In this document: positions 39,654 to 64,000 of the stretch, one piece after another | Position numbering within the stretch: position 1 is the stretch's first letter | Layout: each line of letters begins with the position of its first letter | Source of the DNA: Terriglobia bacterium | GTDB lineage: Bacteria; Acidobacteriota; Terriglobia; Bryobacterales; Bryobacteraceae | Direction of reading: 5' to 3' | Length of the DNA: 64,000 bases | Assembly: GCA_020073305.1 (NCBI GenBank) | Contig: JAIQFK010000001.1 | Location: forward strand, 1 to 64,000 | Translations under genes and position numbers: made by a program | The notes under the pieces: generated by a model | Database searches by the model: none | What the model was told of the DNA's origin: nothing | Seen by the model: the letters and a program-made list of their open reading frames with translations, nothing else

Positions 39654-39673
39654 GCCCTCCAGGGACCGCCCGT

Positions 39674-48587: not shown

Positions 48588-50063
48588 TTAAAAGAACCAC
48601 TTCATCATATACACTTCCACGGGGGCGTAATCGTCCGTGAGGATGGGAACATCCATGGCGATCGGCCTTGTCCAGCGGCGAGCGAGGCGGGCCGCCATGG
48701 CCGGGTCATCACTCGTCCATCGCGGCTCGGCTGCGTTCTTGAAAGCCACGATGATCACATTGCCCAGGGATTCCGGGTCGTCGTTGAGCTTGAAAATCTC
48801 AACCCGCGGGAAGACAGATCGATAAGTGGCTAACTCGGCGCGCAAGAAGCGGCCTCTCGGCCCATAAACCGCCGACATCACGTTCAATATTGCGACGCCA
48901 TTGTCGGACAGGGAACGATACACAAGGCGTGCGGTCTCGCGCGTTGTCAGGTAGTGCGGAACAATCGCGGCGGACCCGAACGTGTCTAAGTAAACGATAT
49001 CGTATTGGGTCCGGCTCAGATTCAAATATACGCGTGCGTCCTGAGTAAAGACCCTAAGCCGGGGGTCATCCGACTTCAAGCCGAAGTACCGATCCGCTAT
49101 TTTCACCAGATCCGGATCTAACTCCACGACGTCCAGTAGCTTGGTCGGATTCCTTTGAAAAAAATCCGAGACGTACGTAAACCCACCACCGCCCAGAAGC
49201 AGGGCGCGACGTGCATTGGGAACAAAGTGGTCTCCGAACCGGAAGTACTTCAGATACTCCAGCACTAAGTCATCGTTCTTGTCCGTAAAGATCGCGGACT
49301 GGCGTGCGAAACGATCGGTAAGCAGGGCGCGGTTGGGCCTGCCGGTTTGGTAGTCGGCCCCTTCGTAAACCAGGCAGTGGTTGTAATGGGTATCCGTTTC
49401 GAAAACGTGTTTACCAGAAATAAACGGCGTCGCCGTGCTTGGCGCCACGTAGAGGCACAGAGCAACCACCGCTGTCGCGGCGATTTTCAGTTTGAGGAAT
49501 CGATTCGCCGATAGCAGGATCGAACAGGCCAGGAGCAAGCCGGAGATGCAAAACAATATCGCCGTGCTGCCAATCATAGCCAGAAGATAGAAGCCCGCGC
49601 CAAACGTGCCCACAATGCTGCCAATCGTCGAAATCGCGTAGAGTCTGCCAACGGTTGCTCCCGTGGACCCGACCTCCTTCAGCTTCAGTCGCACAACATA
49701 GGGCGATACCATCGCCAGTACAAACGAAACCGGCGCAAACAAGACTAACTCTGCAATGATGGCTGCGCTGCGAATATCTGGAATCTGGCTAATCCTCGTG
49801 AGGCAGATATTCTTGCCTGCAGCCACGAAGGCTGTCAGCAGCGCAGCCGAGACAATGATCAAAGATAATTGACCCGCCGACGCATTCCTGTCGGCCAGAA
49901 CTCCGCCTTTCAAATACCCATAGCTCAACGCGGCCAGAATTACGCCGATCAGGCTGCTCCACACGACAATCGAATTTCCAAGAACGGGCGCAAGGATACG
50001 AGACGCCACAATCTCGATGGCCATGATTGACGCGCCCGCCACAAACGCCACTAGCTCCAGCAT
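48588..50063 (-). CDS. membrane-fused spermidine-synthase-like protein
   Basis: The 491-residue protein has eight or so membrane helices in its first 230 residues (e.g. FVAGASIMAIEIVASRILAP and LIIVSAALLTAFVA), then a soluble Rossmann domain of the spermidine-synthase type: ALLLGGGGFTYVSDFF, VVELDPDLVKIADRYF, VFTQDARVYL and IVYLDTFGS. Residue IVYLDTF is D-rich as in polyamine synthases, but the aminopropyl donor site is not certain. The start at 50063 has GAGGAG seven bases upstream. It is divergent from the carrier-protein gene. Confidence 0.82.
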   Translation of the reverse strand: MLELVAFVAGASIMAIEIVASRILAPVLGNSIVVWSSLIGVILAALSYGYLKGGVLADRNASAGQLSLIIVSAALLTAFVAAGKNICLTRISQIPDIRSAAIIAELVLFAPVSFVLAMVSPYVVRLKLKEVGSTGATVGRLYAISTIGSIVGTFGAGFYLLAMIGSTAILFCISGLLLACSILLSANRFLKLKIAATAVVALCLYVAPSTATPFISGKHVFETDTHYNHCLVYEGADYQTGRPNRALLTDRFARQSAIFTDKNDDLVLEYLKYFRFGDHFVPNARRALLLGGGGFTYVSDFFQRNPTKLLDVVELDPDLVKIADRYFGLKSDDPRLRVFTQDARVYLNLSRTQYDIVYLDTFGSAAIVPHYLTTRETARLVYRSLSDNGVAILNVMSAVYGPRGRFLRAELATYRSVFPRVEIFKLNDDPESLGNVIIVAFKNAAEPRWTSDDPAMAARLARRWTRPIAMDVPILTDDYAPVEVYMMKWFF

Positions 50064-50224
50064 TGACACTCCTCGGGCCCGCTCCTGTCCGAGAGGCCAC
50101 ACTCTGATCTTAAGCGCCACACCCACCAAAATCGTAGTGCCAAAGGAACTCAGAAGACTACTAACTTCGGACAACGTGACTTCCGGGAGTTACTAGCGGA
50201 TAATCCGGTTTGAGTGGTTTTACC

Positions 50225-50247
50225 GAGCCGCGACCGAAGGAAGCGGT
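50225..50247 (+). repeat. short dispersed repeat, copy 1
   Basis: GAGCCGCGACCGAAGGAAGC followed by GGT. It matches 52056-52079 in most positions and lies upstream of the carrier-protein gene. The rest of 50064-50293 is gene-free and includes the promoters of the divergent genes, which I could not place. Confidence 0.6.
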
Positions 50248-50293
50248 ACTAACGTGCCGCAATCATCCTCCAGTGTCTCTTGGTAAGCAAAAT

Positions 50294-50545
50294 ATGAACG
50301 AAAAAGTGGCCGTGCGAGAACTTGTGCAAACCCTGCTCCGCCGGAAGGGCGATGAAAACGGCTTTGCGGATAGCGACTCACTCATCGCCAGCGGGCGGTT
50401 AGACTCGGTTGACACGATAGGCCTGCTGGTATTCCTCGAAGAGCAGTATGGAGTAGATTTCGGAGAACGTGGATTCGATCGGGACGAATTGGATTCGGTG
50501 GACTCGATCGTGGCCTTCCTCGGAGCAAGCCAGTTACCCGCATGA
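50294..50545 (+). CDS. acyl/peptidyl carrier protein (DltC-like)
   Basis: The 83-residue carrier protein has the phosphopantetheine attachment serine S38 in RLDSVDTIGLLVFLEE. It has a four-helix layout and acidic surface typical of carrier proteins (FADSDSLIAS, then RDELDSVDSIVAFLG). Its size fits a discrete DltC- or ACP-type protein. Its stop overlaps the start of the adenylation enzyme (ATGA). It therefore probably carries the substrate activated by that enzyme. The ribosome site is weak; a GTG 28 codons upstream would add residues overlapping the repeat and is not favoured. Confidence 0.88.
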   Translation: MNEKVAVRELVQTLLRRKGDENGFADSDSLIASGRLDSVDTIGLLVFLEEQYGVDFGERGFDRDELDSVDSIVAFLGASQLPA

Positions 50546-52053
50546 GTTTCAATCTTGCCCATCCGGTTTATGAGCACGGTCGGAACCATGGATCGAGGCT
50601 GGCTGTATCGGTTGGCGGCAACGATCTTTCTTATGCCGAACTGTCGGCTCTGGCGCAGAGAACGGCTCGCTGGTTGACCGCCGGACCTTCCCGTCCGCCC
50701 GGGTTTGTGGGAGTCCTGGCCTCTCGCAGCGTGGAAGCCTATGCGGGTGTCCTCGGGGCCTGTTGGGCGGGTGACGCCTACGTGCCGCTGAATCCCCAAC
50801 TTCCGGAACAACGCCTCGCGCAACTGTTGCGCATCATCCAGCCGGTTGCGCTGGTGGTGGATGAAGCCGGACGAAAAGCTCTCTCCGGATGCGCTCTCGA
50901 AGCCTGCCCGCCCCGCATCTTGAGCGGCTTTCATGAGTTGCCACCGTGCGATCCGCAAGACCGCCCGCGCGCGGTGGACGCCGAGCACACCGCCTATATG
51001 ATCTTCACCTCCGGAAGCACTGGCGTGCCGAAGGGAGTCCTCGTTCCCACACGCGCCGTGTGCCACTTGGTGAAAATGTTGCAGGAACTGTACAGTTTCC
51101 GTCCGGAGGATCGGTTTTCCAAAGCTTACAACCTCAGCTTTGACGGCTCCGTGCACGACATGTTCACGGCGTGGCATGCCGGCGCGTCGCTGCACCCTGT
51201 GCCCGCCAGTCAGTTGATGGCTCCCATGAAGTTTATCCAGGAACGGCAGCTCACCGTCTGGACCTCGGTGCCGTCGACGGCCGTTTTTCTCGAACAGTTG
51301 AAAATGCTCCAACCGGGGGCATTTCCTTCGCTCCGTTATTCCATTTTCTCCGGTGAGCCGCTGCCCCTCCGCTCGGCTTTGGCCTGGCGTCGCGCCGCGC
51401 CCAATAGCGAGGTGGACAACATTTGCGGCCACACCGAATGCTGCGTCTTCAGCACGCTGGAGCGCTTGTCGGACCCTCCGAACGTCACGTCCAACCGGGG
51501 TCTGGTGGCCATCGGCAAACCCCTGCCGGGATTCGAAGCAGCCGTCTTTGACCAAGCCTGCGCGTGCTTGCCGCCGGGCAAGGAAGGCGAACTCGCGCTC
51601 GCCGGACCACAAGTGGCGAAAGGCTACTTTCAGGACCCGGAGCGTACCGCGGCACGCTTCCCCGTCATCAACGGGAAAACGTGGTACCGGACTGGAGACC
51701 TCGTCTGCCAGGACGAGTCCGGCACCTATCACCATCTCGGGCGCATTGATTCCCAGGTCAAAATTCTGGGCCACCGCGTAGAACTTGGCGAGATTGAAGC
51801 ACACCTGAGCCAGATCTGTGATTCGGATTCGGTGGCTGCCGTCGCGTGGCCCGTGGATCACGGTTCAGCCCGGGGCATCGTGGCGTTTCATTGCAGCGAA
51901 GCGCGTTCGCCCCAAGAAATCCGTGACGCCATGCTACAACGGGTGCCGCGCTACGCCGTGCCGACCCGGGTGCTCCGGCTGTCAACGATGCCGCTTACGA
52001 CAAACGGCAAAGTCGATCGCGCCGCGCTGATCCAGGTACTCGAGCGTCCCTAA
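50542..52053 (+). CDS. amino-acid adenylation enzyme (DltA-like)
   Basis: The 503-residue ligase activates a carboxylic acid as adenylate and loads it on a carrier. Core motifs are YMIFTSGSTGVPKGVLVP (A3), NLSFDGSVHDMF (A4, with the Asp that binds an alpha-amino group), GHTECCVF (A5), YRTGDLV (A7), GRIDSQVKILGHRVELGEIE (A8) and TTNGKVDRAAL (A10, with the catalytic lysine). The A4 Asp argues for an amino acid as in NRPS and DltA enzymes. It is a free-standing domain, coupled to the carrier gene. Its 3' end lies 35 bases from the convergent MBOAT gene, with a short repeat between. Confidence 0.9.
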   Translation: MSFNLAHPVYEHGRNHGSRLAVSVGGNDLSYAELSALAQRTARWLTAGPSRPPGFVGVLASRSVEAYAGVLGACWAGDAYVPLNPQLPEQRLAQLLRIIQPVALVVDEAGRKALSGCALEACPPRILSGFHELPPCDPQDRPRAVDAEHTAYMIFTSGSTGVPKGVLVPTRAVCHLVKMLQELYSFRPEDRFSKAYNLSFDGSVHDMFTAWHAGASLHPVPASQLMAPMKFIQERQLTVWTSVPSTAVFLEQLKMLQPGAFPSLRYSIFSGEPLPLRSALAWRRAAPNSEVDNICGHTECCVFSTLERLSDPPNVTSNRGLVAIGKPLPGFEAAVFDQACACLPPGKEGELALAGPQVAKGYFQDPERTAARFPVINGKTWYRTGDLVCQDESGTYHHLGRIDSQVKILGHRVELGEIEAHLSQICDSDSVAAVAWPVDHGSARGIVAFHCSEARSPQEIRDAMLQRVPRYAVPTRVLRLSTMPLTTNGKVDRAALIQVLERP

Positions 52054-52055
52054 CT

Positions 52056-52079
52056 GAGCCGCGACCAAGAGGGAGCGGT
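52056..52079 (+). repeat. short dispersed repeat, copy 2
   Basis: GAGCCGCGACCAAGAGGGAG followed by CGGT. Same orientation as the copy at 50225, so the two bracket the carrier and adenylation genes. A partial third match ends at 34162. Confidence 0.6.
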
Positions 52080-52087
52080 CTTCTTTC

Positions 52088-53569
52088 TCAAAGCCCGAAT
52101 AGTCGCCCAACGAAGATAAAGTGCTCTCGCAGGCCGTATGTCCTGTTAGTGTCGTCGAAAATATGCACGAAGCAATAGAATGCCGACACGCAGAGGACGG
52201 GCACGAGGCGGCGGCGCAACCAGGAATGGGACGGATCAACCTTCCGTTGAGCGCGCAACTGTGAGATGGAGATGCTGGCGCCAAGCACAAAAGTGTAGAA
52301 CAGATAGGTCTGGAAACTGGCTATGGCGCGCCACCAGCCTAACTCGGCAACCAGAGAAATGTCGCGGAGAAAGTGAAAGATGGCGTTGCCGGCGCAGGCC
52401 GCCATCATCGTGGCAGCGGCCATGCGCAGCCGTGCATGCTTCTTGAAATACCGGAGATAGGTGGGATAGAAAAACATGTCCACCAGCAGCTCCTTGAAGT
52501 AGAAATAGAAGCGATTCCAGAACTCCGCCAGTGAGCGTGACTCGAGGGGCCGGTACGTATTGCGCAGCGCGCGGAATCCGGCCATGCGCGCGCAGGCGAC
52601 GATCTGATGTCCCCAGATGCTCGCCTGCAGCAGGTTCGAGAGGAACACCGCGACCAGGCTCAGGCAGTTCCAATACCACGCGAAAGGATGGCCTGCGACA
52701 CTGCGGCCGAACGCTGCTTCATACTCCGGAATGCCCAGCTTTCGATAGATGACCAGGTGATAACCGATCAGGCCCATCTGCAGTATCAGGGCCCAGAGCA
52801 GCAGCTTCAGGCCTTTGAGTTGGGTGATGGCGAGTTCATCGGCGTTCTGCGCCTCAATTTTGCGGAGGTATGCTGCGCCCTTGGCGAAGGGAGTGCCAGA
52901 GCCCGTGTTGGCCATCCACGCCGGCCGCCAGAGCCCGGCCTGCAGAGGCACGGAGTCGCGATGATTGCGGGAATCGCGATCGGTAAGGGTGTAGCAGAAG
53001 AACCAGAGCATGCGTGCGATCGCTAGGACTGAGATCCAGGCGGCTACGCGGCTCCAGCCGGTGAGAGGGGCCGTCGACACGGCGACGACAAGCGCGCAGA
53101 AGCACAAAATGGTGGCGAGCACCGGACGGCGCGCCGCCAGCCGCCGCGGAAAGCGAAAGGCTAATGCCGCAAGCCCGGCCAGTAAAACAAAGACCGCCGC
53201 CACGATGAGACGAATGAGAAACCGCGGCAGATGCGCCAGCCCTTCCTGGGCGGCGACGTGATCGAGGAAGGGGAGGTCGAGCCAGTTCGGGAGCGCGATG
53301 GCGATCAGCATACCGGCGGCGCTGAGTACCCGGCGGCGGTGGTGGGGGAAGGCCGTGGTGAGCGCGAGAAAGGCGGCGACCGCCAGCCACTCACGCCCAA
53401 ACACAGCCAACAGAAGCGTGAATACGGCCAGCAGCGCCCACTGCCCGGCCGGCTGCTTACAGCGCGCCACCAGCAGCGGGTCCTTTTCCAGGCTGGGGAT
53501 CAGCCTGACATTCATGCCAAGGCTCGCTGGCCTGTGTTCATCCGTATCGACCAATTCGAAATCTAACAA
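52088..53569 (-). CDS. MBOAT-like membrane acyltransferase (DltB-like)
   Basis: The 493-residue membrane protein has about 10-12 helices. Near residues 347-371 SLAEFWNRFYFYFKELLVDM resembles the MBOAT block FW-x-R-(W)H and following helix. H399 in GNAIFHFLRD fits the catalytic histidine after a short hydrophobic run. A second segment, QLRAQRKVDPSH, and a hydrophobic C-terminus follow. In DltB the enzyme moves an amino acid from a carrier protein across the membrane. The start may be TTG 53569 or ATG 53515. It converges on the adenylation gene, giving a carrier, ligase and acyltransferase in one locus. Confidence 0.75.
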   Translation of the reverse strand: MLDFELVDTDEHRPASLGMNVRLIPSLEKDPLLVARCKQPAGQWALLAVFTLLLAVFGREWLAVAAFLALTTAFPHHRRRVLSAAGMLIAIALPNWLDLPFLDHVAAQEGLAHLPRFLIRLIVAAVFVLLAGLAALAFRFPRRLAARRPVLATILCFCALVVAVSTAPLTGWSRVAAWISVLAIARMLWFFCYTLTDRDSRNHRDSVPLQAGLWRPAWMANTGSGTPFAKGAAYLRKIEAQNADELAITQLKGLKLLLWALILQMGLIGYHLVIYRKLGIPEYEAAFGRSVAGHPFAWYWNCLSLVAVFLSNLLQASIWGHQIVACARMAGFRALRNTYRPLESRSLAEFWNRFYFYFKELLVDMFFYPTYLRYFKKHARLRMAAATMMAACAGNAIFHFLRDISLVAELGWWRAIASFQTYLFYTFVLGASISISQLRAQRKVDPSHSWLRRRLVPVLCVSAFYCFVHIFDDTNRTYGLREHFIFVGRLFGL

Positions 53570-53655: not shown

Positions 53656-56439
53656 CTACGCCGCTCCTCGCGCCACACCCATGTACACTGCTCTCCTCGC
53701 CCCCACCGGCATCGGCGCCGGGCAGCTCATCAGACAAAACTGGTCAAGTGCGAATAGAACGACCGACTCCAGGTTCTCCGCCAGCGACAGCCGCGCTTCT
53801 TTCTGCCACGGCGTCGTGTAACCCGTAATTCCCACCAAGTGGCTGCTTTGACTCTGCGCGAATCCCATCTGCATCGGCAGCAGAATCGAGTTCCTTGCCA
53901 GCTTGAGATTGCGCCCGCCCGTGAAAGTGAAATTTTCAGTCTTCAGACAATTCAGCGTGGCCGGATTCCAGTTCGATGGCAGGTTCACCGCCCCGTTCCA
54001 TGGCGTGTCGTTCGTATCGGGAGGATACAGCACCTCGAACTTCGCGCTGGGGAACGTCTGCCGGACAAAACTCATTACCGCGCTGGTAAATGCCCCAATC
54101 AAGCCGGGTAGAAACGCCGCTTCCTGCGGATAAGACGACGGCGACACAGTGCTGTTCGTGAACACCTGCATCGCACGGCCATAGGTTGCCGCGAAAGTAC
54201 TCATCGTGTACGCGTCATAATAAGGCATTCCCGAGCCATCATCGGGAAAGTACCACCATTGAACCTCGCCGAACTGCAAGTACGGAACCTGCCCGGCATC
54301 GGACATGACCGCCGCCATGTCCAAATATGCCTGTTTCCAGAATGCCGTGCTCATCGGAGAAAAATTCGTCTGCAGTGCCGGAGTGTTCAGCCAGACGGCG
54401 TTGCCGCTCGGATACACTTGTGCGATCCCCGCTTCGGGTGATCGATCGCCGTGTCCCAGTTCCATGCTGAATGCCCCCGTCGCAGCGATTCCATACCCCT
54501 GCAGGGCGCCAAAGAAGCTGCGGCACCAGTCGCGCGCCGCGCGGTTCATCCTGGGTACAACCGTGAGATCCGTAACCCAATTCTCGTCGTTGCCGCCGTT
54601 GATCGCCGATCCGCCCGTGCCTCCGGCCAGCGTAGAACCGCTCGTCAGCAGCGCGAAAGTTCCGCTGGCCGGATCTGCCGAAATGGTAATCGCATTTCCA
54701 TCCCCGCCGATTTCGCGCGAGTAGATCGTCAGAACATTGCCGCTGGCCTGCGCCCAAATTCCCGTATATCCGCTGTTGATTTCCAGCTCGAAAGCCTTGG
54801 CAATGCTGACTGCCGTGTCCCCGAACAGGTTCACGTGCTGGATCGCCGTGGGGCCGACATTCAGCGTCGTGACGGCGCTGCGTGTGGGGGTTCCGTCGAA
54901 CTGCACCGTCGCAGACGCGTAAGTGTAATTCTGAGGGACCATCTCGTAATGCCGGAGGGCGCCCGCGTAGTGATTGGCCCGCCCCGCGAACCCCAGGGCC
55001 TGGATCATTCGCGCGGTTCTTTCGGGCGCCAGCGCAATCGAATGGTCGGTGTCCCAATCGGTCGCCAGCGTCATTCTCGCATCCGGCGCGAACACGGGCA
55101 GAGTCGTCGTGGGCACCGCCAGTTCCAAAAAATCAAAATAGAAGCTTCCTGCCCCGACTCCATGCGTGAGCGTCACCGTATGTGTATCCTGACCGGAAAA
55201 GGTGCCCAGCGGAATTCTTACGAGTACATCTTCTAAAGCTAGAAACAAATTCAGACCGATCGCTGGCTGTTGATCGACCACCGCGGTAATCTCTGCTCCG
55301 CTCACGGCCTTCCGTGTCCCCAGATAGAGCTGGTGGGCTTGGCTGGCGCGATACGTACACGAAACCGAATCGCCGGGCGTGGTAGTGACGTGAATCGTTC
55401 CGCCGGAGAAGTTGCCGTTCGCCGCGCTCCAGTTACCCGAATAAACCACTTCGAGTGAGGTGTCCTCGATCCGCCGGCTGCCCGGTCCCGCCACTTGATA
55501 AGTGAGGTTGCTGCCACTTACCATCCAGTTTGAAACCGTAACCTGAAACTCGCTTCGTTGATAACTGCCCGCCTGAAAGTCCGCCGCGTAAGTCCAGCGC
55601 ATCTTGCGCACGGAATGGGTGGGAATGACTGTCGTGTTGTCATCTGCCAACAGATTGCTGAAGTCGAGCGAGACTCTCCACTGTGTCGGAGACGTTCCTC
55701 CGCTGAGCTTCTGAAACCACGGTGACCAGCTTTCGGTCACCGGCTGGGTAGGCCCGGCATCCGCTTGTACATTGCCGTACACGCCGATGCGATTTCCATT
55801 CGCGCCTACGGTGCTCGATTCCAGCGTCTGTCCCGCTCCAATGTACGTCAGAGTGATCTGGCTTCCGTTGCTGGAAGCGCGCATCGTCGGCGAGGGTACG
55901 TTGTTGATCGCATCTGCGATCGCCTGAACTACGGTGTCAAGTGTATCGCCCGCGACAACTTTGTGGGAATAGTGTTCCAGCGACCATGCCAGCTCCACCC
56001 AGTCGTCTGCTGTAAGCGTTCCCGTGAGAGTGAACGTGGCCGTAGCCGGTTGATAGCTTCCCGCGATCGGCGTGGCATGCGATTTGATAGGTACTTTGTA
56101 CAGCGTCTCCACGCCTCCTGGGTCCGCCCAGATGCGAAGCGACGGCCAATCCACGGTCGGGTATAAAGTGGAGTCAATGGGAAGGCAACTCTGGCGAATC
56201 TCATCGTAAGTTAACACCACACCGCTAAGATCGCCGTCAGGAAGGTTGCGGAAGGCAGGATGTTCGAAGGTGTTTTCTCGATTCCACTCGATGACTACCC
56301 AGTCGAATTGCTGGCGCCACGAGCCGGATATCGTGAACCCTGTCGGGCTGGTCCCACTGAGCGCCGCGGCCGCCGACGGCTCCAGGAAGTAACATTGCAG
56401 ATCCCGGTCCGGACGTAGTTTCTGCAGCGTTTCAACCAT
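53656..56439 (-). CDS. phage-like tail fibre with barrel domain
   Basis: The 927-residue protein ends the tail module. Two copies of a beta-rich repeat (about residues 161-225 and 538-590, each with GDT, IN and GN landmarks) and Ig-like segments make up its first 600 residues. The C-terminal part from about 620 has helices and strands like a TIM barrel, with E660 (FSMELGHGD) and E725 (LQFGEVQWWY) where a glycosidase acid pair could be. It probably binds and perhaps cleaves a surface glycan. I do not recognise a named family. Repeat copy C separates it from the hub gene. Confidence 0.7.
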   Translation of the reverse strand: MVETLQKLRPDRDLQCYFLEPSAAAALSGTSPTGFTISGSWRQQFDWVVIEWNRENTFEHPAFRNLPDGDLSGVVLTYDEIRQSCLPIDSTLYPTVDWPSLRIWADPGGVETLYKVPIKSHATPIAGSYQPATATFTLTGTLTADDWVELAWSLEHYSHKVVAGDTLDTVVQAIADAINNVPSPTMRASSNGSQITLTYIGAGQTLESSTVGANGNRIGVYGNVQADAGPTQPVTESWSPWFQKLSGGTSPTQWRVSLDFSNLLADDNTTVIPTHSVRKMRWTYAADFQAGSYQRSEFQVTVSNWMVSGSNLTYQVAGPGSRRIEDTSLEVVYSGNWSAANGNFSGGTIHVTTTPGDSVSCTYRASQAHQLYLGTRKAVSGAEITAVVDQQPAIGLNLFLALEDVLVRIPLGTFSGQDTHTVTLTHGVGAGSFYFDFLELAVPTTTLPVFAPDARMTLATDWDTDHSIALAPERTARMIQALGFAGRANHYAGALRHYEMVPQNYTYASATVQFDGTPTRSAVTTLNVGPTAIQHVNLFGDTAVSIAKAFELEINSGYTGIWAQASGNVLTIYSREIGGDGNAITISADPASGTFALLTSGSTLAGGTGGSAINGGNDENWVTDLTVVPRMNRAARDWCRSFFGALQGYGIAATGAFSMELGHGDRSPEAGIAQVYPSGNAVWLNTPALQTNFSPMSTAFWKQAYLDMAAVMSDAGQVPYLQFGEVQWWYFPDDGSGMPYYDAYTMSTFAATYGRAMQVFTNSTVSPSSYPQEAAFLPGLIGAFTSAVMSFVRQTFPSAKFEVLYPPDTNDTPWNGAVNLPSNWNPATLNCLKTENFTFTGGRNLKLARNSILLPMQMGFAQSQSSHLVGITGYTTPWQKEARLSLAENLESVVLFALDQFCLMSCPAPMPVGARRAVYMGVARGAA

Positions 56440-56455
56440 ATTAAGAAGATCGAGC

Positions 56456-56534
56456 GGGGACTGGCTCCACTGTCCCTAAGCCCGACGGCCACAAGCTATC
56501 AGAGTGTTCGTTGTGAACAGTGCATCCTGTCCCC
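56456..56534 (+). repeat. 80-bp inverted-repeat element, copy C
   Basis: Left arm GGGGACTGGCTCCACTGTCC (56456-56475) and right arm GAACAGTGCATCCTGTCCCC (56515-56534), one base shorter in total than copy B. It lies between two tail genes of the same strand. Confidence 0.85.
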
Positions 56535-56543
56535 GCTCGCCCT

Positions 56544-59500
56544 TTACAGCCTGATCACCACCGTCAGGTCCGCGCCCGGATTGGTCGGCCCCACCATATT
56601 GATATCCAGGCTGAGCCTGGCTCCGGCAGTCAAAAGAGGCAGTAATGCTCCGTTCATCGAGTTTGAAACCGTGTGCCCATCCGCAATCGTGAACGCGCAA
56701 TACAACGCGCCGTCCTGATTGATCTGAAGTTGAATGGACCCGCCCACGGGCGCTTGGCGAATTACGGCATACACATCGTGCACCGAATGCGTGTTCTCAA
56801 CAATGATGTCTGGCGTCGCGCCCGTTTCAATCGCCAGAAAGCCTTCCACTTGAAATGAGAACTGTCCGCCGGAAAGCGTTCGCAGTCCGTAGTCGTCCGT
56901 CGCCGTTACGCACACTGCCGTCGTCGGGCTTTGTCCTTTGATGTTGGTGACAAAAAGCTCTGCGCTGGTGACGCGGCAATCCGGCAGTAACACGGGAAAG
57001 TTCCAGGTTCCGCTCGCCGGGCTGCCGAAGAAATCACGGACGAAAGGAACGATCTGTGTCTTGCTCAACAGTGCATAAACCAGCGTGCCGCTAGCGTGAG
57101 ACGCGCTCGAACTGCCCTGAACGCCCCGCACAAGCTGAAGCCGCGATCCGCCATTCAAGACGGCCGCAATTTTCAGAACCTCCCCATCGAGCTCGATATA
57201 AGATCCGGCCAGCAATGTGCTCGCGGTACTTAGATCTGCGATGGTATCCTGTGCGCCGATAGCCGAAGCCAACGCCACGGTAGGCAGACCATCCAGCTCT
57301 CGAAAATAGTACAGAGTAAATGTGCCGGCAGTGACCGTATGCGTATTGGTGAGATCGGCGAAGCTGACACCGCTCAACTCGACGGTGCCCCCCGCCGTTG
57401 TGGAGAGCCCTAGTCCGAACGACGGCGCGGGTGGTACATCTGCATCCAGGCCTCCCGATCCTCCAATCACCCACCGCGTGAGCGCGCACAGCTCGAGCGG
57501 TGATTCCTCGTTGTTCGCGTTCGCTGCTCGACCGGAGATGTGAACCGTTGCCCCCGTTCGATTCGGAATTTCAAACTGCACCGGACTGGCGTGCGCCGTC
57601 GCTCCCGCGTGCCAGCCCGATTCCGCGACCACAAAGTAGCTGGTCGCGTCGGGCTGCGTGTCCCACGGCCAGTTGACTTCGAGCAACGTCGTGGTGTTTG
57701 ACGCGATGGACCGTTCTTGTCCGGCGCCCGTTCCGCGCGTGATCCGCACCATCATCCCCCGGTACCCGCTGGCCACCATTTCCAGCGTGTCGTTCCCGAC
57801 GCTTGCCGCATCGTTCAGAGTGGCCGGGTACTCGGGCTGCTGCTCCATGCGCCAGTAGAAGTTCGCGTGGGCAAAATTAGGATCCGGAGGAGGTGTGATC
57901 TGCTCAGGCAGACCGCTATCTGTGAACTGTGCCGCTATCGTTTGATTGGATGCGATCCGGTATAACTGCGCCGGACTCGGTCCTCGATAGACATGAAACG
58001 TCGTAGCGGCCGTTGGAAAACTGAGTCCCGAAAGAGTAACTGTATTCGTGTTTGGCCCCGAAGGAACGGCCGCCCTGACGATGAACGACAAGGTGCCTTC
58101 CGCTCCCGAACCATCTACCGCGCTCACCGCGTAGTACAGCGTGGCGCCTGCCGCGAGCGTTCCACCGCTGGCGCCAATCGCCGGCGCCAGGCTCACGAGC
58201 GGCACCCCGGGCGCGCTGGACGAAACCGTCGAGGGCGCCGAAAACGCCACCGTGACCTCCAGCGCTGTGCTGCCGTCCCCTGCCTGAAGCGCGCTTTCCG
58301 TCACTCCGAACTGCACATCGCCGTTCGCATCCAGTACGGTTCCGATCAACGGCCGCGGCAGCCCCACTTCCGATCCCGGTTGCCGCCGCGCACCGGAGTT
58401 GCCCGGCACCTGTCCATTGGTGTCGTCATACCACGCATCGTCGTGGATCTGTGCCGTAATCGTTGCAGTCCGGTAATTCAGATCGGGAGCGACCTTTATG
58501 ACCCGAAATGGTTGCTGTGTAAACCCTTCCTTCAGGTAAGTCAGTGTAATTAAGTCGCCAGGCTGGATGCCCAGCGCCTTGACGCTGGTTCGAAACTCGA
58601 CATAAGTGTTCCCCAGAATCGTCCGGTCTAGGTTGAATTTGAGTATTCTTGCCGCCTGGTCGTAATTTGGAATTCCCAACGCCGTAATAGGCCCTGTAAT
58701 TTCCTGTCGTGTCCGCTGAACATCGTCCACATCGGTCAGGGAATAACTGTCCTGCTGATATTCATTCAACGCATCCTGAAACTCCACCGCGAAACGATTT
58801 GGCGTATCAGCTATACTGCGGGACCACAGGCGGAGGCTGGACTCTCCATTCGCTCGCCGTACAATGCCCGAAACGCCCGAAGATCCGTCGCCGAACTCAT
58901 AACTTGGCCAGCCGTCGTTGTACACGCTCGAGCTGTTGGTCCAATCCGGCTTGGACGGCTGTTGCAATGCGAATGTGTTCTGGACGTTAAGTTGTAACCG
59001 TGCATTATTTCCATAAGTGAGATACAACCGGCATCCGTTTCGAATCCCTCGGATTAGGTCGCCGGCGGTTCGCCGGTTCGTGAGCGTTAGATTGCACCCG
59101 AAACGCGGAACGGTAATCGGGTTTCCGTAGAGATCTTGTGTCTGTATCTGTTCGCCCGCGTAAGCTGCCGCTCCTGCGAAGCTCGGCAAATCGATTTCGT
59201 CTAATTCCCAGCCGCACCGGCGTAATACGTCCAGCAGAATCCACGCCGGATTGTTCGTAAATGTGTAGCTCGCGAAGCTTCCGTCCGGTCCGTAGGTGTC
59301 CAGCTTCGATCCCTCCACCAGCACCTTAATCGCGGGTAAGTTGCCGCCGTTGTTGATGCGATTCGGAACCACTACCGAGAGCGCGGCCATGCTCCCGTAA
59401 GGATCTCCCAGCGGATTTCCATTCTTGTCGCTGAAGTCCGCATTGAACCCTCCCGTCCGGGCCCCCGTGCTGAACACGTTGAACCATCCCGTTCCGGTCA

Positions 59501-60470
59501 TGTTGGCGCCCGATCGCCCTTGCGGAATGTCGATATCGTTCACCAGAACCTTGACGATGCTGTTGATTTCTCCCATCCCCAGCAGCACTTCCATGCGCGT
59601 CAGGTTGCCGTCGTTCCGCGCAAACACGATACTCGGCGAATACCACACGGTCCCGTAGACCAAAGGCACAAAGTCGTTATACAAGGCCACATTCGAGATA
59701 ACGGGAGACCAGTGCCGGCCTGGCTCGCCCGTGCTTCGCACCAGCGTCGCCGGGGGAAGGAATTCGAAACCGCCAAATCGCTGAGTCGCCTGTAGCGAGT
59801 TGTCCTGGTGGAACATGCCTCGCGCTTCGCAGTCCGCTCTCGTAAATCCGCACGACGTGAACGGAACTCCGCCGTTGAGCTTCCCCGCGCCGCCGGGTAT
59901 ATCGGGTGAGTACCCGCATCGATAGAACCGCGAGTAGCGTCCGTTCGCGCCCCCGCTCGTGGCTTCCTGCCTTTGAGCGGGCGTCGATGGGAATTCCCAG
60001 GGGCAGCGCCGCTGGATGCGCACCTGCGGGAGCAGCACCCGCTGCATGTTCATCTTGTTGACGGCGGTAATCCGGAATGTGGATTCCGTAATTTCGTCAG
60101 GCGGATTGAGTATTCCCTTGAACAGCGTGAGGATCGGAGTGGTCGCCGCGCCTTGCGTGAGATCGAAAAAGGCGAAGCTGACACTAAGTGTCGCCCCCTT
60201 GAACCCTATCGCACGCTCGATTTCCGAGAAGTGCGAGTCCGCGTTCGCCAGTGCGATCGAGATCTTCGGAATGGTGTCGACGCCTAAATCGGAGGATGTT
60301 TGAATTTCGTAGAGATTGTGCTGTAGGACTTTGGCCTGGTATGTGGTTCCCGATAATGCGATCTGGTGCGTCGACCAGTTCTCGGCTTGGGACCCTTGCA
60401 GTTGGCAACTGAAGAGGAGAAGCGGTGTGTCGGTGACAGCCTGTTCTTTGACTTGAAACGCCGTGGGCAT
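56544..60470 (-). CDS. tail hub fused to central fibre, gpL/gpJ-like
   Basis: The 1308-residue protein is the largest in the window. The first 220 residues contain four cysteines, C156 (RRCPWEF), C185 (YRCGYS), C207 (TSCGFT) and C214 (ADCEARG), in the order of lambda gpL and the gene-transfer-agent hub protein, where they hold an iron-sulfur cluster. After that come GpJ-like domains (ILLDVLRRCGWELDEIDLP, RTAGDLIRGIRNGCRLYLTYG) and several FN3-like or Ig-like modules (about 745-830 and later). The C-terminus is a small beta domain with DLTVVIRL. It should sit at the tail tip and contact the host cell. Confidence 0.8.
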   Translation of the reverse strand: MPTAFQVKEQAVTDTPLLLFSCQLQGSQAENWSTHQIALSGTTYQAKVLQHNLYEIQTSSDLGVDTIPKISIALANADSHFSEIERAIGFKGATLSVSFAFFDLTQGAATTPILTLFKGILNPPDEITESTFRITAVNKMNMQRVLLPQVRIQRRCPWEFPSTPAQRQEATSGGANGRYSRFYRCGYSPDIPGGAGKLNGGVPFTSCGFTRADCEARGMFHQDNSLQATQRFGGFEFLPPATLVRSTGEPGRHWSPVISNVALYNDFVPLVYGTVWYSPSIVFARNDGNLTRMEVLLGMGEINSIVKVLVNDIDIPQGRSGANMTGTGWFNVFSTGARTGGFNADFSDKNGNPLGDPYGSMAALSVVVPNRINNGGNLPAIKVLVEGSKLDTYGPDGSFASYTFTNNPAWILLDVLRRCGWELDEIDLPSFAGAAAYAGEQIQTQDLYGNPITVPRFGCNLTLTNRRTAGDLIRGIRNGCRLYLTYGNNARLQLNVQNTFALQQPSKPDWTNSSSVYNDGWPSYEFGDGSSGVSGIVRRANGESSLRLWSRSIADTPNRFAVEFQDALNEYQQDSYSLTDVDDVQRTRQEITGPITALGIPNYDQAARILKFNLDRTILGNTYVEFRTSVKALGIQPGDLITLTYLKEGFTQQPFRVIKVAPDLNYRTATITAQIHDDAWYDDTNGQVPGNSGARRQPGSEVGLPRPLIGTVLDANGDVQFGVTESALQAGDGSTALEVTVAFSAPSTVSSSAPGVPLVSLAPAIGASGGTLAAGATLYYAVSAVDGSGAEGTLSFIVRAAVPSGPNTNTVTLSGLSFPTAATTFHVYRGPSPAQLYRIASNQTIAAQFTDSGLPEQITPPPDPNFAHANFYWRMEQQPEYPATLNDAASVGNDTLEMVASGYRGMMVRITRGTGAGQERSIASNTTTLLEVNWPWDTQPDATSYFVVAESGWHAGATAHASPVQFEIPNRTGATVHISGRAANANNEESPLELCALTRWVIGGSGGLDADVPPAPSFGLGLSTTAGGTVELSGVSFADLTNTHTVTAGTFTLYYFRELDGLPTVALASAIGAQDTIADLSTASTLLAGSYIELDGEVLKIAAVLNGGSRLQLVRGVQGSSSASHASGTLVYALLSKTQIVPFVRDFFGSPASGTWNFPVLLPDCRVTSAELFVTNIKGQSPTTAVCVTATDDYGLRTLSGGQFSFQVEGFLAIETGATPDIIVENTHSVHDVYAVIRQAPVGGSIQLQINQDGALYCAFTIADGHTVSNSMNGALLPLLTAGARLSLDINMVGPTNPGADLTVVIRL

Positions 60471-60473
60471 TTT

Positions 60474-61262
60474 TCAGCGCGCCGAAAGCGTCAGTGTGCA
60501 CTGGTTGCGGTTAGGCGCCGTTGTCGTAACGGCAAGGCTATCCTGGCTGAAGTGCGCATTCGGATAGACACCGCTTGCTGAAAAGCTCGCCTTGTAGGGC
60601 GATGGTGCGGGCTGGGCTTCGAGTTGGCATCCATACACATCGACGGAGTTTCCCGCCGGGATGGTAATCCCAAACGTTATGGAAGGTGCCAGCGTACTAA
60701 GGCTCCCGCTGAGACTGATTCGGTTCCACGTCGCCGCTAGCGTGTAAGAACGGCCGTTGAACGCATCCGCGGTCTGACGGAATAACGAAACCATCGTTCC
60801 GCTCTCGCCGCGAACATACAGGCTGAAGCAATAAACCAACCCGCCCGGTGCGTTCACGTTCTGCTGCACCGTGAGATCGGCAGACGTTGGATTCGCAATT
60901 CGAGTCGCCCTGCTTCCGCCGCTCGGATCATTGATTCCTCCTGTGAGCTGCAGCAGCGTGCTGGATTCCCACACCGTTTGGGTCAGGTCCTCACTCCACA
61001 TGAGTAAGTTATCCATTGGATCGAGAAACGTGAAGCCATTGAGCTGCCCCTCGCATGCCGAAAAAAACTGTTGCAGGTTAGCGATCTCGGAGTCTGCAAG
61101 GTCTTGATAAGTCAATTGCCATTCGACCCATTCTGCTCCCGTGTCCGCCAACTTGACCGTACGGCCATCGGAGAGTTGGTTGATGATGGTTCTTTCGGCG
61201 CGACGCTTCTGGATGGGATATTGCCCGGTGGCGCCCGACGACAATTGGGGAAGGTGCGGCAT
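60474..61262 (-). CDS. distal-tail-like protein with beta-sandwich extension
   Basis: The first 85 of 262 residues match the next gene in pattern: QYP near residue 15, WVEWQLTYQDLADSEIANLQQFF, and CEGQLNGFTFLDP. This resembles the DUF2460/distal-tail family. The remaining 175 residues form a separate beta-rich domain (RATRIANPTSADLTV, VYCFSLYVRGESGTMVSLF, SVDVYGCQLEAQPAPSPY) like a carbohydrate-binding sandwich. It starts directly after its relative, with no spacer. The role is probably at the tail tip. Four bases separate its stop and the hub gene. Confidence 0.75.
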   Translation of the reverse strand: MPHLPQLSSGATGQYPIQKRRAERTIINQLSDGRTVKLADTGAEWVEWQLTYQDLADSEIANLQQFFSACEGQLNGFTFLDPMDNLLMWSEDLTQTVWESSTLLQLTGGINDPSGGSRATRIANPTSADLTVQQNVNAPGGLVYCFSLYVRGESGTMVSLFRQTADAFNGRSYTLAATWNRISLSGSLSTLAPSITFGITIPAGNSVDVYGCQLEAQPAPSPYKASFSASGVYPNAHFSQDSLAVTTTAPNRNQCTLTLSAR

Positions 61263-61625
61263 CTACGCTCTGTTTTCCACCACCACCAGGCTTGTGCTTC
61301 CCCGAGTGTCTCCCTGCACCTGATAATCAAGCGTGTCTTGATCCAGGCTGCAGTTCCCGAACGTCGTTTGGGTCCACGGATCGACAAATGAGAATGTCCC
61401 GAAGCATCCTTCCTGACCGATAAAAAATTGCTCGATCGCGTTCAGCTCCGCCTCATCCAGCATGTCCAGCCTGATGGTCCAGCGCCGCAACGAAGATGGG
61501 AACTGCCGGTACCTCTGGTCGGCCCCATCCAGAAATCGCACCACAAAGCTCGCGAATTGGGTGGTGTGAGTCGCTGGATATTGTGCGACGGCCCCGGTTT
61601 TGAGAATGGGAAACAGCGCCGGCAT
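61263..61625 (-). CDS. distal-tail-like protein
   Basis: The 120-residue protein has VAQYPATHTTQFAS near the start, RRWTIRLDMLDEAELNAIEQFF in the middle, and QEGCFGTFSFVDPWTQT. These mark the short distal-tail protein type (DUF2460-like) that links tube and hub. It starts in a TAATG with the end of the tape-measure gene and is followed by a longer relative, so the pair arose by tandem duplication. No catalytic motif is seen. Confidence 0.75.
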   Translation of the reverse strand: MPALFPILKTGAVAQYPATHTTQFASFVVRFLDGADQRYRQFPSSLRRWTIRLDMLDEAELNAIEQFFIGQEGCFGTFSFVDPWTQTTFGNCSLDQDTLDYQVQGDTRGSTSLVVVENRA

Positions 61626-62254
61626 TATAGGTCGCCAATCACATCGTTCAGAGAGTGCATGTTGAGGACGGCGTCGCGCACGGCTTGCGCGATGTCCTGG
61701 CTGTGGTCCAGAAACGACCGGCTGTCCATTGCCTGAATGTTCACCGTGACCTGCGAAGTCGGTTGCGAAGGATTGCTCAAAATGCGGGGATTGCCGCTTT
61801 GCCCGTAATCGGCGCCCGGAGATGCCGTTCCCGGAACATTGGCGGCTTGAAACGTGAGACTGGGAGGAGGAATGTAGGACGTTAGTGGCGGTGGCGTACT
61901 CGAACCTCCGCCTCCGAACAGGTCCAGCAAGCCTGACAGGATCGGCGACAACCCTCCTAATAGGCCGCCGGTAAATGTCGACGCCACGTTGCCGATGTTT
62001 TCCGCAACGCCCCCGGCACCATGCGCCGAAGTGCTCGCAGCGACCGCCTGGGTATTGGCCAGCAGTGCTTCCGCCTGAAGTTGACTCGCTGGCACGAGAT
62101 TCCCGATGTTCCGCGATAACTCGGTTAAGGTGTCCGCGAAACTCGCACCGCCCTGCGGGAGAAGGCCTCCCAGCAGTCCGGTTAAACCCGAGCCGCTGGA
62201 CGCCAGTCCCGGAGCCCCACGCCCGGGTTCACTTCCGCTGCTACTCTGCGCCAT
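61625..62254 (-). CDS. short tape-measure-like protein
   Basis: The 209-residue protein is Gly/Ser-rich at the N-terminus (SGLTGLLGGLLPQGG). Helical Ala/Asn-rich segments follow (LSRNIGNLVPASQLQAEALL), then a Gly-rich hydrophobic stretch (TFTGGLLGGLSPILSGLLDL) and a Pro-rich linker. The last 40 residues (TVNIQAMDSRSFLDHSQDIA, then QAVRDAVLNMH) match the C-terminus of tail tape-measure or tail-length proteins. At about 210 residues it predicts a short tail. Long-tailed phages have tape measures several times longer. It overlaps the upstream gene by 14 bases. Confidence 0.75.
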   Translation of the reverse strand: MAQSSSGSEPGRGAPGLASSGSGLTGLLGGLLPQGGASFADTLTELSRNIGNLVPASQLQAEALLANTQAVAASTSAHGAGGVAENIGNVASTFTGGLLGGLSPILSGLLDLFGGGGSSTPPPLTSYIPPPSLTFQAANVPGTASPGADYGQSGNPRILSNPSQPTSQVTVNIQAMDSRSFLDHSQDIAQAVRDAVLNMHSLNDVIGDL

Positions 62255-62573
62255 TCTGCTTCTCCAATTCCAGTTGCCCCTCGAGAATCAGAAACGCTTC
62301 CGCCTGCCGCGCATTCAGATCGAATGGGAGAGCCAGACGAAGGCGCCTCCAGGTGAAATACTCTTCTACCCAGCCTATGCTCTGTGCAGTGATCAGTGAC
62401 GTCGGGCACTCGTCGGCTGCAACCGGCCCTCGAGCCCAGACGACGTGCGGAGGGGTTTGCTGCGCAGCCGGCACCCAGGCGCACCTTCGTTTGATTTCCA
62501 GTCCGGACTTCCGGCATTTGTCGCACCTCCAGCCGGCTGGGTTCGAGCGAAGGAAATGGAAGGCGACGATCAG
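62241..62573 (-). CDS. zinc-ribbon tail-module protein with probable CTG start
   Basis: The frame extends upstream beyond the first GTG (62474) to a CTG at 62573-62571, which overlaps the stop of the preceding gene as CTGA, the same geometry as ATGA coupling. From there the product has 110 residues. It begins IVAFHFLRSNPAGWRCDKC and has C17-x2-C20-x10-C31 and a later cysteine (VAADECPTS), a zinc-ribbon-like set. The C-terminal half reads as helical (WVEEYFTWRRLRLALPFDLN). Position matches the small protein between chaperone and tape measure in some gene transfer agents. Function unknown. Confidence 0.6.
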   Translation of the reverse strand: MIVAFHFLRSNPAGWRCDKCRKSGLEIKRRCAWVPAAQQTPPHVVWARGPVAADECPTSLITAQSIGWVEEYFTWRRLRLALPFDLNARQAEAFLILEGQLELEKQNGAE

Positions 62574-62935
62574 TTTTTTCGTTCAGACTCTGAAAGGGCG
62601 CACTCGGCTTTGATGGCGGCTACCGCCTCGCGGAACAAATCTTCCGGACCCGAGGTGGCTAGCAGCTCCGGTGTGGCTCGCATGCCATCAACTTCCAGTC
62701 CGGTCACCTCTTGCAGGCCCCAGTTCACATAGAGGCGATCGATCTCAGCCGAAAGCAGAGCCGCGTCGAGCTTATCCTCGCCTGACTCTCCCGCCTTCAG
62801 AAAGTCGAACTTGAGCGATAGTTCGCGGATGCGGCCGATCAAATCCATTCGTCGTGTAAACGACATTTTCGCAACGACGAAGCGAACTCCCGGCGCGATT
62901 TTGGATTCGATTCGTGTGCAGCTTTCATAGTTCAT
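62570..62935 (-). CDS. tail-assembly-chaperone-like protein
   Basis: The 121-residue protein lies between the tail tube and tape-measure genes, where phages and gene transfer agents encode tail-assembly chaperones. It is acidic and helical: RFVVAKMSFTRRMDLIGRIR near residue 20, LYVNWGLQEVTGLEVDGMRA in the middle, and SGPEDLFREAVAAIKAECAL at the end. It has no catalytic motif. Its ATG is three bases after the upstream tube stop. The call rests on position and composition. Confidence 0.7.
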   Translation of the reverse strand: MNYESCTRIESKIAPGVRFVVAKMSFTRRMDLIGRIRELSLKFDFLKAGESGEDKLDAALLSAEIDRLYVNWGLQEVTGLEVDGMRATPELLATSGPEDLFREAVAAIKAECALSESERKN

Positions 62936-62938
62936 GCT

Positions 62939-64000
62939 CTATCCAAAGGCCACTACGATTTCATCGTCCACGGTACCCTGCGCCCGAGAGCTTCCAAAGT
63001 GCCATTTCAGGCGGGCTTCGCTGTCGTCATACTCCGGTACCTGGGGAATCAGGCTCTTTAAGTACGCGCCAAACAACTGATTCGGCTGCTGGCCAAGCTG
63101 GACCATCGCGCTAATTGGCGACTGCTGTTTGGCAGCCTGGTACAAAGATTGAGTTACTGAGTCGTCCTGTTGGTACAACTCGAAGTCAAGACTCGCAGCG
63201 CGTATTCCAGCCGAGACCGCTCGCGGTAGGCTGGATCCAAACTCTTGGGCGCGTAGGTCCAAGTTGTTACTGAGTGCAAGTTGGGCGCTCGTTATTGTAA
63301 AAAAGCGACTAGGGTCGTTGCCGAGCCACACCTGACCCAGATGACCCGGAACAATCGAGTAGTCAAATGTTCCCAGTGTTGGCTCGGAAGGGAACGCACT
63401 GAGCTGCCCGATTCCACTCGAGAAACTCGAGCTATCCGCAAGCTCCTGTGCCACGCCCTTAAAGGCAAACTCATGAAAATCTCCGTTCACCTTGACGGCT
63501 ATTTGATCCACGGCGGCGCCGCAGAGAATGCGATGCACGGCCGAGCTGGGTGCCCAATAGTCAAATATGCTCACGGAGGGAAGCTCTGTGCTTAGAAAAT
63601 AGGTTGCGGTAGGGCCAAGACTGGAACCGGGAACCGGTGCCGTCGAGAGCGGCGCATTCAGTTGAACCGTGAGACTATCCAGAGCCGACATCACAAACCG
63701 GATCTCTCCAAGGTAGCTGATAGCCTGCCCCGCAACAAGGCCATGAGGTGCCGCGAACGTTACAGATGTGGCCGTTGAGCCGACGCCTACGGTCCCTCCG
63801 GGGCTGATCGACGCGCTGCTGCCGAGTCCGGCATGAAATAACGGTCCATAACAGGGTTCACTTGGTCCTCCGGCCCAGGTGGTCAGCAGAGTGTTGAGCT
63901 GAAATGTTGTTCGGCGCCGGCCACCGGGCGGCAACCCCGCGAATGTTCGGCTGCCCGTCTTGTCTTTACGGTTGGTGACTTCAAGCAGTTGCTTGGCCGA
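62939..64000 (-). CDS. major tail tube-like protein, 5' end cut by window
   Basis: The frame remains open to the right edge, so the gene starts beyond the window; at least 353 residues are visible. The part nearest the edge reads KQLLEVTNRKDKTGSRTFAG. The protein is beta-rich with Gly/Ser loops (PGGTVGVGSTATSVTFAAPH, ATYFLSTELPSVSIFDYWAP) and a C-terminus with AVSAGIRAASLDFELYQQDD. This is the pattern of a tail-tube subunit with inserted domains. A TTG at 63934 could be read as a start, but coding upstream of it makes that unlikely. Head, portal and terminase genes would be expected further right. Confidence 0.75.
   Translation of the reverse strand, partial: SAKQLLEVTNRKDKTGSRTFAGLPPGGRRRTTFQLNTLLTTWAGGPSEPCYGPLFHAGLGSSASISPGGTVGVGSTATSVTFAAPHGLVAGQAISYLGEIRFVMSALDSLTVQLNAPLSTAPVPGSSLGPTATYFLSTELPSVSIFDYWAPSSAVHRILCGAAVDQIAVKVNGDFHEFAFKGVAQELADSSSFSSGIGQLSAFPSEPTLGTFDYSIVPGHLGQVWLGNDPSRFFTITSAQLALSNNLDLRAQEFGSSLPRAVSAGIRAASLDFELYQQDDSVTQSLYQAAKQQSPISAMVQLGQQPNQLFGAYLKSLIPQVPEYDDSEARLKWHFGSSRAQGTVDDEIVVAFG

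Follow-up and report, generated by a model that had tools for sequence, protein, structure and literature searches.

We analysed a stretch of 64,000 nucleotides (the window), positions 1-64,000 of contig JAIQFK010000001.1 in assembly GCA_020073305.1 (Terriglobia bacterium, Bryobacteraceae; hereafter G000:C1). Coordinates on C1 past 64000 continue the window numbering. The subject is a cluster of 16 contiguous phage-type genes on the minus strand at C1:53656-70264 (16.6 kb, with a -1 frame continuation counted as one). This is almost certainly a domesticated and vertically inherited phage-particle cluster of the Bryobacteraceae chromosome. It probably acts as a gene transfer agent (GTA), packaging and transferring host DNA. 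Direct support comes from gene content, collinearity, distribution, partial co-divergence with rpoB, host neighbours, purifying selection, shortening of the tape measure and a frameshift site. The identity of the small terminase and its loss of specificity, frameshifting itself, packaging, release and transfer are what we infer.

The initial annotation, made from the window, described a 10-kb tail module of eight contiguous minus-strand genes. The module is real. The genes lie at the coordinates given, and the same order was found in all loci examined, far beyond chance. However, the module is longer than described. The window ends at 64000. Hence, only the tail half is visible there, and head genes and terminase continue on C1 up to 70264. 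To the right of 64000 we found portal, capsid and terminase, and no integrase in the flank scanned or read up to C1:82000. Most tail genes do abut or overlap, as the annotation had said, but the hub and TIM-barrel genes are separated by 104 bp containing a dispersed hairpin repeat. The gene order is small-terminase candidate, TerL, portal, scaffold candidate, coat, a protein of 105 amino acids (aa), connector, a 165-aa protein, tube, chaperone and continuation, tape measure, two DUF2460 proteins, hub and TIM-barrel protein. The features, all on the minus strand, are listed by coordinate.

53656-56439, minus: TIM-barrel tail protein, 927 aa, last gene (PF23845 TIM-barrel_NCTSP, 6e-16; phrog_165 tail sheath, 7.5e-14).
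56440-56543, minus: 104-bp spacer between the hub and TIM-barrel genes, with the hairpin-forming dispersed repeat (fold z-score -3.96).
56544-60470, minus: hub or central fibre protein, 1308 aa (PF13550 Phage-tail_3, 3.5e-7; phrog_31 'central tail fiber J', 3e-22).
60474-61262, minus: DUF2460 distal-tail-like protein 2, 262 aa (PF09343, 1e-6; phrog_2913, 4e-8).
61263-61625, minus: DUF2460 distal-tail-like protein 1, 120 aa (PF09343, 3e-8).
61625-62254, minus: short tape measure, 209 aa (C-terminal homology to the tape measure of a phage cousin).
62241-62572, minus: -1 frame continuation of the chaperone, ~110 aa, with zinc-ribbon-like cysteines (conserved across loci).
62573-62579, minus: slippery heptamer A AAA AAC, a predicted site of programmed -1 frameshifting (heptamer in 46 of 48 loci).
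62570-62935, minus: tail assembly chaperone, zero-frame form, 121 aa (position and frameshift architecture; 34% identity, E 1e-13, to the phage-cousin counterpart).
62939-64105, minus: tail tube, 388 aa, 5' end cut by the window edge (phrog_290, 5e-7, weak; structure match).
C1:64124-64621, minus: 165-aa protein in neck or tail-terminator position, without a family match.
C1:64628-65422, minus: connector candidate, 264 aa (weak match to head closure Hc3, 0.0025).
C1:65439-65756, minus: 105-aa protein (phrog_2616, 2.5e-4).
C1:65793-66704, minus: coat protein (MCP), 303 aa (phrog_283, 9e-41; P22_CoatProtein, PF11651, 3e-19).
C1:66748-67365, minus: scaffold candidate, 205 aa (no PHROG match; weak match to a coiled-coil family, 0.006; 32% identity to the phage-cousin counterpart).
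C1:67283-68743, minus: portal, 486 aa (phrog_145, 1e-45).
C1:68757-70061, minus: TerL, 434 aa (phrog_2, 7e-37).
C1:70019-70264, minus: small-terminase candidate, 81 aa, without a family match.

Thus, by family and structure matches, the locus holds a phage-derived head-tail set in which terminase, portal, capsid and tail genes are all present. The coat also matches phrog_267, and Phage_capsid_2 below its cut-off. TerL contains the stretch GPIGSGKS, which we take to be Walker A-like. Foldseek matched the AlphaFold model of a tube orthologue (pLDDT, a model confidence score, 86) to P74-26 and T5 tail tubes (E 5e-15 to 2e-14). At the tail tip, the second DUF2460 protein scores 28.8 bits against PF09343, just below the curated cut-off of 30.4. 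The translated hub has several cysteines in its N-terminal part. The domain in the last gene, PF23845, is a TIM-barrel 'non-contractile tail sheath' domain. A peptidylprolyl isomerase gene lies beyond the cluster. The ~80 bp hairpin repeat of the spacer has 35 matches in the G000 genome including itself, i.e. more than 30 related copies.

The cluster is widespread in its family. We searched for the coat in one genome per species of Bryobacteraceae, 237 genomes from 76 genera, and found it in 198 species and 70 genera. Genomes of high quality (≥90% complete, ≤5% contaminated) gave 124 of 148. Most carriers had one match, some had two or three, and few matches were partial. Across the order Bryobacterales the coat was present in 201 of 257 genomes, the two smaller families contributing 2 of 2 and 1 of 18. 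Among 396 genomes drawn from the phylum, coat matches above 31% identity occurred in two Bryobacteraceae only; those outside the family were at 31% or less. A search of 61 genomes for TerL gave a match in 37, including one from the same class and another order (G057) at 51%.

To compare gene order, we took regions of up to 20 kb around 54 loci and judged them by the positions of matches. One order was found in 54 of 54 loci, and 47 held at least 13 of the 16 genes. The other seven hold few genes; six are at contig ends and one is the L066 prophage described below. The synteny check suggested in the initial annotation therefore gave collinear loci and a presence, in 198 of 237 species, that is not sporadic. 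The tape measure, called as a mechanical open reading frame (ORF), is 153-255 aa long in 46 loci. The matched span is 15.2-17.5 kb in loci with the TIM-barrel gene. That gene is the variable end of the cluster: 21 of the 47 fuller loci have it in place and two (genus g75) have it on the opposite strand; it was not found in 18, and is undeterminable in six, where the sequence ends. The G+C fraction of the cluster ranges from 0.48 to 0.69 across loci and broadly tracks that of the flank.

We compared the descent of the cluster with that of rpoB, anchored by tblastn, in 27 of 30 genomes. Left out were G005 and G018, which gave no rpoB match, and G008, which has a partial locus. The tree of seven concatenated cluster proteins and the rpoB tree had 15 of 24 splits in common; with shuffled tips, 0.31 splits were common on average and three at most (2000 draws). 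Protein distances correlated with those of rpoB for nine of ten proteins (6 or fewer of 999 permutations). The mean amino-acid distance of the coat, 0.218, was close to the 0.179 of rpoB.

Host genes recur beside the cluster. Of the 37 genera sampled, several with little flank available, 16 showed recurrent neighbours. In 12 genera the cluster has an ABC ATPase, a POT peptide transporter or an M24 peptidase nearby, the ABC ATPase being present in 11 genera. The ilvB gene, or an ilvB-ilvC-leuA block, is near it in five genera, and G035 has both sets of neighbours. No family of upstream flank genes was common to more than four genera, the largest being the ilv-leu block. The neighbour block is inverted in G034, and ilv is on the other side in G006. 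The simplest reading is one ancestral insertion and not many. Two of these neighbours are in the window.

46425-47621, minus: ABC ATPase of polysaccharide/teichoic-acid-export type, 6 kb from the cluster.
38484-39686, minus: M24 (Xaa-Pro) peptidase, with the side, strand and order seen in other genera.

In several genera the ABC ATPase is directly downstream of the cluster, on the same strand and within ~120 bp (e.g. L051:17438-18643). It could be co-transcribed with the cluster or shape a surface sugar receptor. In the window, the interval between the cluster and the ABC ATPase (48588-53569) encodes a fused MFS/spermidine synthase, a small carrier-protein-like ORF with an amino-acid adenylation enzyme, and a 493-aa protein of unknown kind.

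Selection was estimated as the ratio of nonsynonymous to synonymous change (dN/dS; Nei-Gojobori, pairs with dS <2, within five genera; the TIM-barrel gene from one pair only). Medians ran from 0.08 for the coat to 0.30. All 16 genes were below 1, and the highest single value was 0.72. Hence, the dN/dS comparison that the initial annotation had called for found purifying selection on every cluster gene. Phages are also under purifying selection. Consequently, this is evidence of upkeep and not, by itself, of domestication.

The initial annotation saw no integrase or lysis gene in the tail half. The PHROG scans of the flanks, together with reading by eye, found none on either side of the full cluster. 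In 23 other genomes we scanned 140 of the 208 flank ORFs listed, 67 of them downstream and 73 upstream; no integrase, lysis, head or tail family was among 49 of the 51 families matched (25 of 27 downstream, 24 of 24 upstream). The flank ORFs were called mechanically, some are antisense, and the 140 scanned were the nearer ones. In the flanks of the cluster's own genome, ten scanned ORFs matched only PHROGs of unknown function, and we inspected the remainder of C1:70265-82000 by eye. Inside the cluster there are no replication, integration or regulatory genes. No replication or integration gene was found beside it; dispersed lysis and regulatory loci were not sought genome-wide. Separately, C1:79843-80385, 9.6 kb from the cluster, encodes an Amidase_2 protein of 180 aa with endolysin-family matches, which by its family could possibly serve as a release enzyme. 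The proposal of a domesticated particle is thus supported: no integrase or lysis cassette lies in the flanks scanned, presence among relatives is not sporadic, and att sites were not searched for.

A temperate phage lineage with a coat ~74% alike, and a divergent portal and tail, is found in these hosts. One genome, G034, carries its own cluster (L059) plus a second locus (L066/L368, on C144) with a 74%-identical coat. Read by eye, the second locus has DNA-methyltransferase-like and other genes around the coat, and is a prophage. With its portal as query we found one relative in IMG/VR, IMGVR_UViG_3300045107_000772 (G653), a contig of 48,742 bp that may itself be a fragment. The order of the module in G653 is that of the cluster, with further genes interposed. 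Identities to the window's cluster are 74% for the coat, 49% for TerL, 34% for the chaperone, 33% for the portal, 32% for the scaffold, 31% for the hub, 29% for the TIM-barrel protein, 28% for DUF2460, and 23% for both connector and tube. The 105-aa, 165-aa, small-terminase and tape-measure genes of the window had no match in G653 in that search. Extra genes of G653 encode an integrase (phrog_1, 4e-37), a regulator of repressor type (phrog_8, 6e-10) and, by a weak match (2e-4), a helicase loader.

The tape measure is 869 aa long in G653 and 209 aa in the window. Residues 149-206 of the short protein align with residues 813-863 of the long one (blastp E 4.8e-7). In the reverse search, 36 of 46 short tape measures aligned to the C-terminal end of the G653 protein at E ≤1e-3, the best at 9e-12. 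By these alignments, the short tape measures are homologous to the C-terminal end of a phage tape measure.

The initial annotation listed a small zinc-ribbon protein as a separate gene between chaperone and tape measure. That assignment should be replaced, since the ORF is best read as continuing the chaperone in the -1 frame. A slippery heptamer, A AAA AAC, lies at 62579-62573 and adjoins the chaperone stop codon at 62572-62570. Both chaperone and tube are present in 48 loci. In 46 of these the heptamer is in frame, and in 44 it sits 2-3 codons upstream of the stop; L064 and L068 are without it. The extension encoded in the -1 frame is conserved and rich in cysteine, and ~110 aa long in most loci. 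The G/GT chaperones of siphophages use such -1 frameshifting. Most likely, then, frameshifting in the chaperone gene produces the zinc ribbon. The frameshift site is conserved, which argues that tail assembly is still selected.

We next consider the terminases. The TerL tree included 31 cluster rows; G013 was left out because its TerL is truncated, and the second G034 copy was counted among the phages. The 12 phage rows formed one clade (SH-aLRT branch support 99). A tree that holds all 31 cluster TerLs together was 9.95 log units better than the free tree and was not rejected (approximately unbiased test, p-AU 0.69). As these trees stand, one domestication event would be the simplest reading.

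The small terminase of G653 (TerS) has 207 aa, of which residues 2-96 match a small-terminase family. In ten more phage-type contigs the ORF before TerL has 184-230 aa in eight cases, the other two having 150 and 161 aa. Its length in four cluster-type contigs is 84-103 aa. Across cluster loci the small-terminase candidate is an ORF of 71-191 aa (mechanical starts) that overlaps the start of terL in most. The N-terminus is variable and often basic. The C-terminal part has a conserved end with VxWV; the alignment retained 26 of 47 sequences by a filter on the tryptophan motif, so that the conserved end is partly by choice. The predicted model, of modest confidence (pLDDT 72), has two helices and no helix-turn-helix-like domain. 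Place, helices and conserved end suggest that this is the small terminase, which may have lost DNA specificity. RcGTA is the GTA of Rhodobacter capsulatus, and its gp1 begins with a coiled coil and appears to lack a DNA-binding domain; its authors hypothesise that loss of this domain abolishes sequence specificity (PMC6854486).

Cluster sequences are also present in virus databases. IMG/VR holds at least 597 relatives of the coat, filed as viruses, and 525 relatives of the G653 TerL, of both cluster and phage type. The best 80 of the at least 597 coat relatives are 81-96% identical, and all are on contigs of 18.7 kb or less. One of these 80, L133, is letter for letter L068, a contig of a bacterial metagenome-assembled genome (MAG); both may stem from one metagenome. 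Two others have host neighbours, namely the ABC ATPase in L151 and ilvB in L182. Conversely, phage isolates gave 79 coat records, all below 60% identity, and among the matches listed (20 of 79) none exceeded 29.7%. The nearest TerLs of phage isolates are at 33%.

Several observations weigh against a domesticated GTA. Neither a particle nor packaged DNA nor transfer has yet been seen. The coat is absent from 39 of 237 family genomes, 24 of them among the 148 of high quality, and so can be lost. Its conservation alone is not diagnostic, because true prophages share a coat at ~74%. The coat of G005 (C548:15720-16625) has one in-frame TAG, possibly a pseudogene or a sequencing error. In the window's own genome, G+C is 0.57 in the cluster and 0.61 in the flank. 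Nine of 24 splits disagree with rpoB, several of them well supported on each side, and chaperone distances have no significant correlation with rpoB (97 of 999 permutations). Besides vertical descent, exchange or noise is also present. Single flank ORFs fall in families labelled transcriptional repressor (two) or DNA polymerase (one), all of them broad. The free TerL search places three clusters from outside the family beyond the phage clade. Finally, the small-terminase candidate was no more similar to phage TerS than shuffled sequences were, and a fold search with its model gave no match.

If the particle is domesticated, it could have a job other than gene transfer. It might be empty or deliver protein, in competitor killing or contact signalling, or it might carry DNA for another use such as DNA repair or nutrient release. 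We regard this as unlikely, though it is the best placed of the alternatives. Besides the point that transfer has not been observed, it is favoured by the last tip gene being the most variable part, and by the polysaccharide-export-type ABC ATPase near the cluster in 11 genera. However, purifying selection maintains the portal, the scaffold candidate, the capsid and TerL, which would be superfluous for a tailocin. The tailocin reading was set aside on the same grounds, the head genes and TerL being retained under purifying selection.

An ordinary or decaying prophage, with integrase and replication genes lost or elsewhere, is very improbable. Every cluster gene with a clear family match is of phage type, temperate relatives with a similar coat exist (L066/L368 in G034; G653 in IMG/VR), and 39 of 237 genomes have no coat. 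Against this, the cluster is usually in single copy, occurs in 70 of 76 genera, is collinear, co-diverges with rpoB and has common host neighbours. The scanned flanks hold no integrase, every gene is under purifying selection, and none of the best 80 IMG/VR coat contigs exceeds 18.7 kb. The distribution has already largely refuted a prophage. Least probable of all is a capsid-hijacking satellite or autonomous small virus with a genome of 16-17 kb: IMG/VR files such contigs as viruses, but the cluster contains no replication, integration or regulatory gene, and the best 80 contigs include two with host neighbours and one that equals a bacterial MAG contig.

Taken together, we favour a GTA, and can propose how it might work. 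A P22-type capsid would be filled with DNA via the portal by TerL. With a small terminase that has no recognisable DNA-recognition domain, packaging would start on any chromosomal DNA and proceed headful by headful. The short tail would consist of T5/P74-26-type tube rings on a tape measure reduced to its C-terminal end, assembled by a chaperone pair made through frameshifting, like those of other long-tailed phages. At ~0.15 nm per residue, a tape measure of roughly 200 residues predicts a tail of ~30 nm, against ~130 nm in the phage cousin. The tip would be made of DUF2460 and hub proteins, plus the TIM-barrel protein where present. No replication, integration or lysis genes of its own were found beside the cluster; hence, release must use host or dispersed genes. 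The cargo would be fragments of host DNA, delivered to kin. Known GTA particles carry 4-14 kb (PMC11841831); the cluster spans 15.2-17.5 kb with the TIM-barrel gene.

On this reading, domestication can be followed gene by gene. The tape measure would have gone from 869 to ~200 aa, the small terminase would have been reduced, and integrase, repressor and replication genes would have been dropped. On balance, we think it likely that this is an undescribed, independently exapted GTA lineage which is older than the Bryobacteraceae genera, and probably older than the order Bryobacterales itself, with temperate cousins still in the same hosts. If so, Acidobacteriota, a major soil phylum, would have a native route of gene exchange. 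The cluster would rank among the most common particle systems in soil bacteria, and hundreds of contigs classed as soil 'viruses' would be pieces of it. The public virus catalogue does hold cluster contigs (among the best 80 of at least 597), and the cases checked are bacterial chromosome. What share of the soil 'virome' consists of host DNA packed in particles that the hosts encode becomes a testable question. Likewise, the transition from phage to GTA can now be tested gene by gene against a temperate cousin.

The literature places these results as follows. Detailed knowledge of GTAs comes from few lineages, for the most part Alphaproteobacteria (PMC12946183). Among the titles and abstracts listed in our searches, with subscription papers and bioRxiv preprints mostly outside their coverage, none reported a GTA in Acidobacteriota. 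The term 'acidobacteri' was not found in PMC9662315, PMC11841831 and PMC12946183. Prophages of Acidobacteria were counted by Eichorst et al. (2018), with four in KBS 96 and one each in Bryobacter and Solibacter (PMC5900883); their 35 may or may not include the cluster. The phrase 'gene transfer agent' appears there a single time, with general meaning. The isolate KBS 96 carries the cluster (L212, record KB906767).

One comparison is with the temperate cousins. G653 has the same gene order and, like the G034 prophage, a coat at 74%. G653 differs in its integrase and repressor, its 869-aa tape measure and 207-aa TerS, and its interposed genes. The initial annotation had instead drawn a parallel with RcGTA (Rhodogtaviriformidae). 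Both are compact head-tail clusters, and the gene order of RcGTA is similar to that found here. The tip families DUF2460 and Phage-tail_3 do resemble those of RcGTA. However, the coat of RcGTA is HK97-type and its tube is single-domain, whereas the cluster has a P22-type coat (PF11651) and a 388-aa tube of T5/P74-26 type. The coat and tube are thus of other phage types, and the likeness does not look like descent. RcGTA belongs to another phylum and, in a comparison of coat families, probably to another phage ancestor. Vertical inheritance is a further likeness (PMC9662315). The tape measure of RcGTA is described as having 113 + 83 + 20 residues (PMC7296036), compared with 153-255 aa here. RcGTA gp1 appears to lack a DNA-binding domain (PMC6854486), and none is visible in our small-terminase candidate. 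RcGTA has a tail peptidase gene, g14 (PMC7296036), and no such separate gene was seen in the cluster. Likened by description only, the Bartonella and Brachyspira GTAs and a Faecalibacterium GTA candidate are also phage-derived, and are held to be independently exapted (PMC9662315, PMC12946183). Three independently exapted GTA groups are evaluated in PMC9662315. The Bryobacteraceae cluster would be a further exapted group beyond those three.

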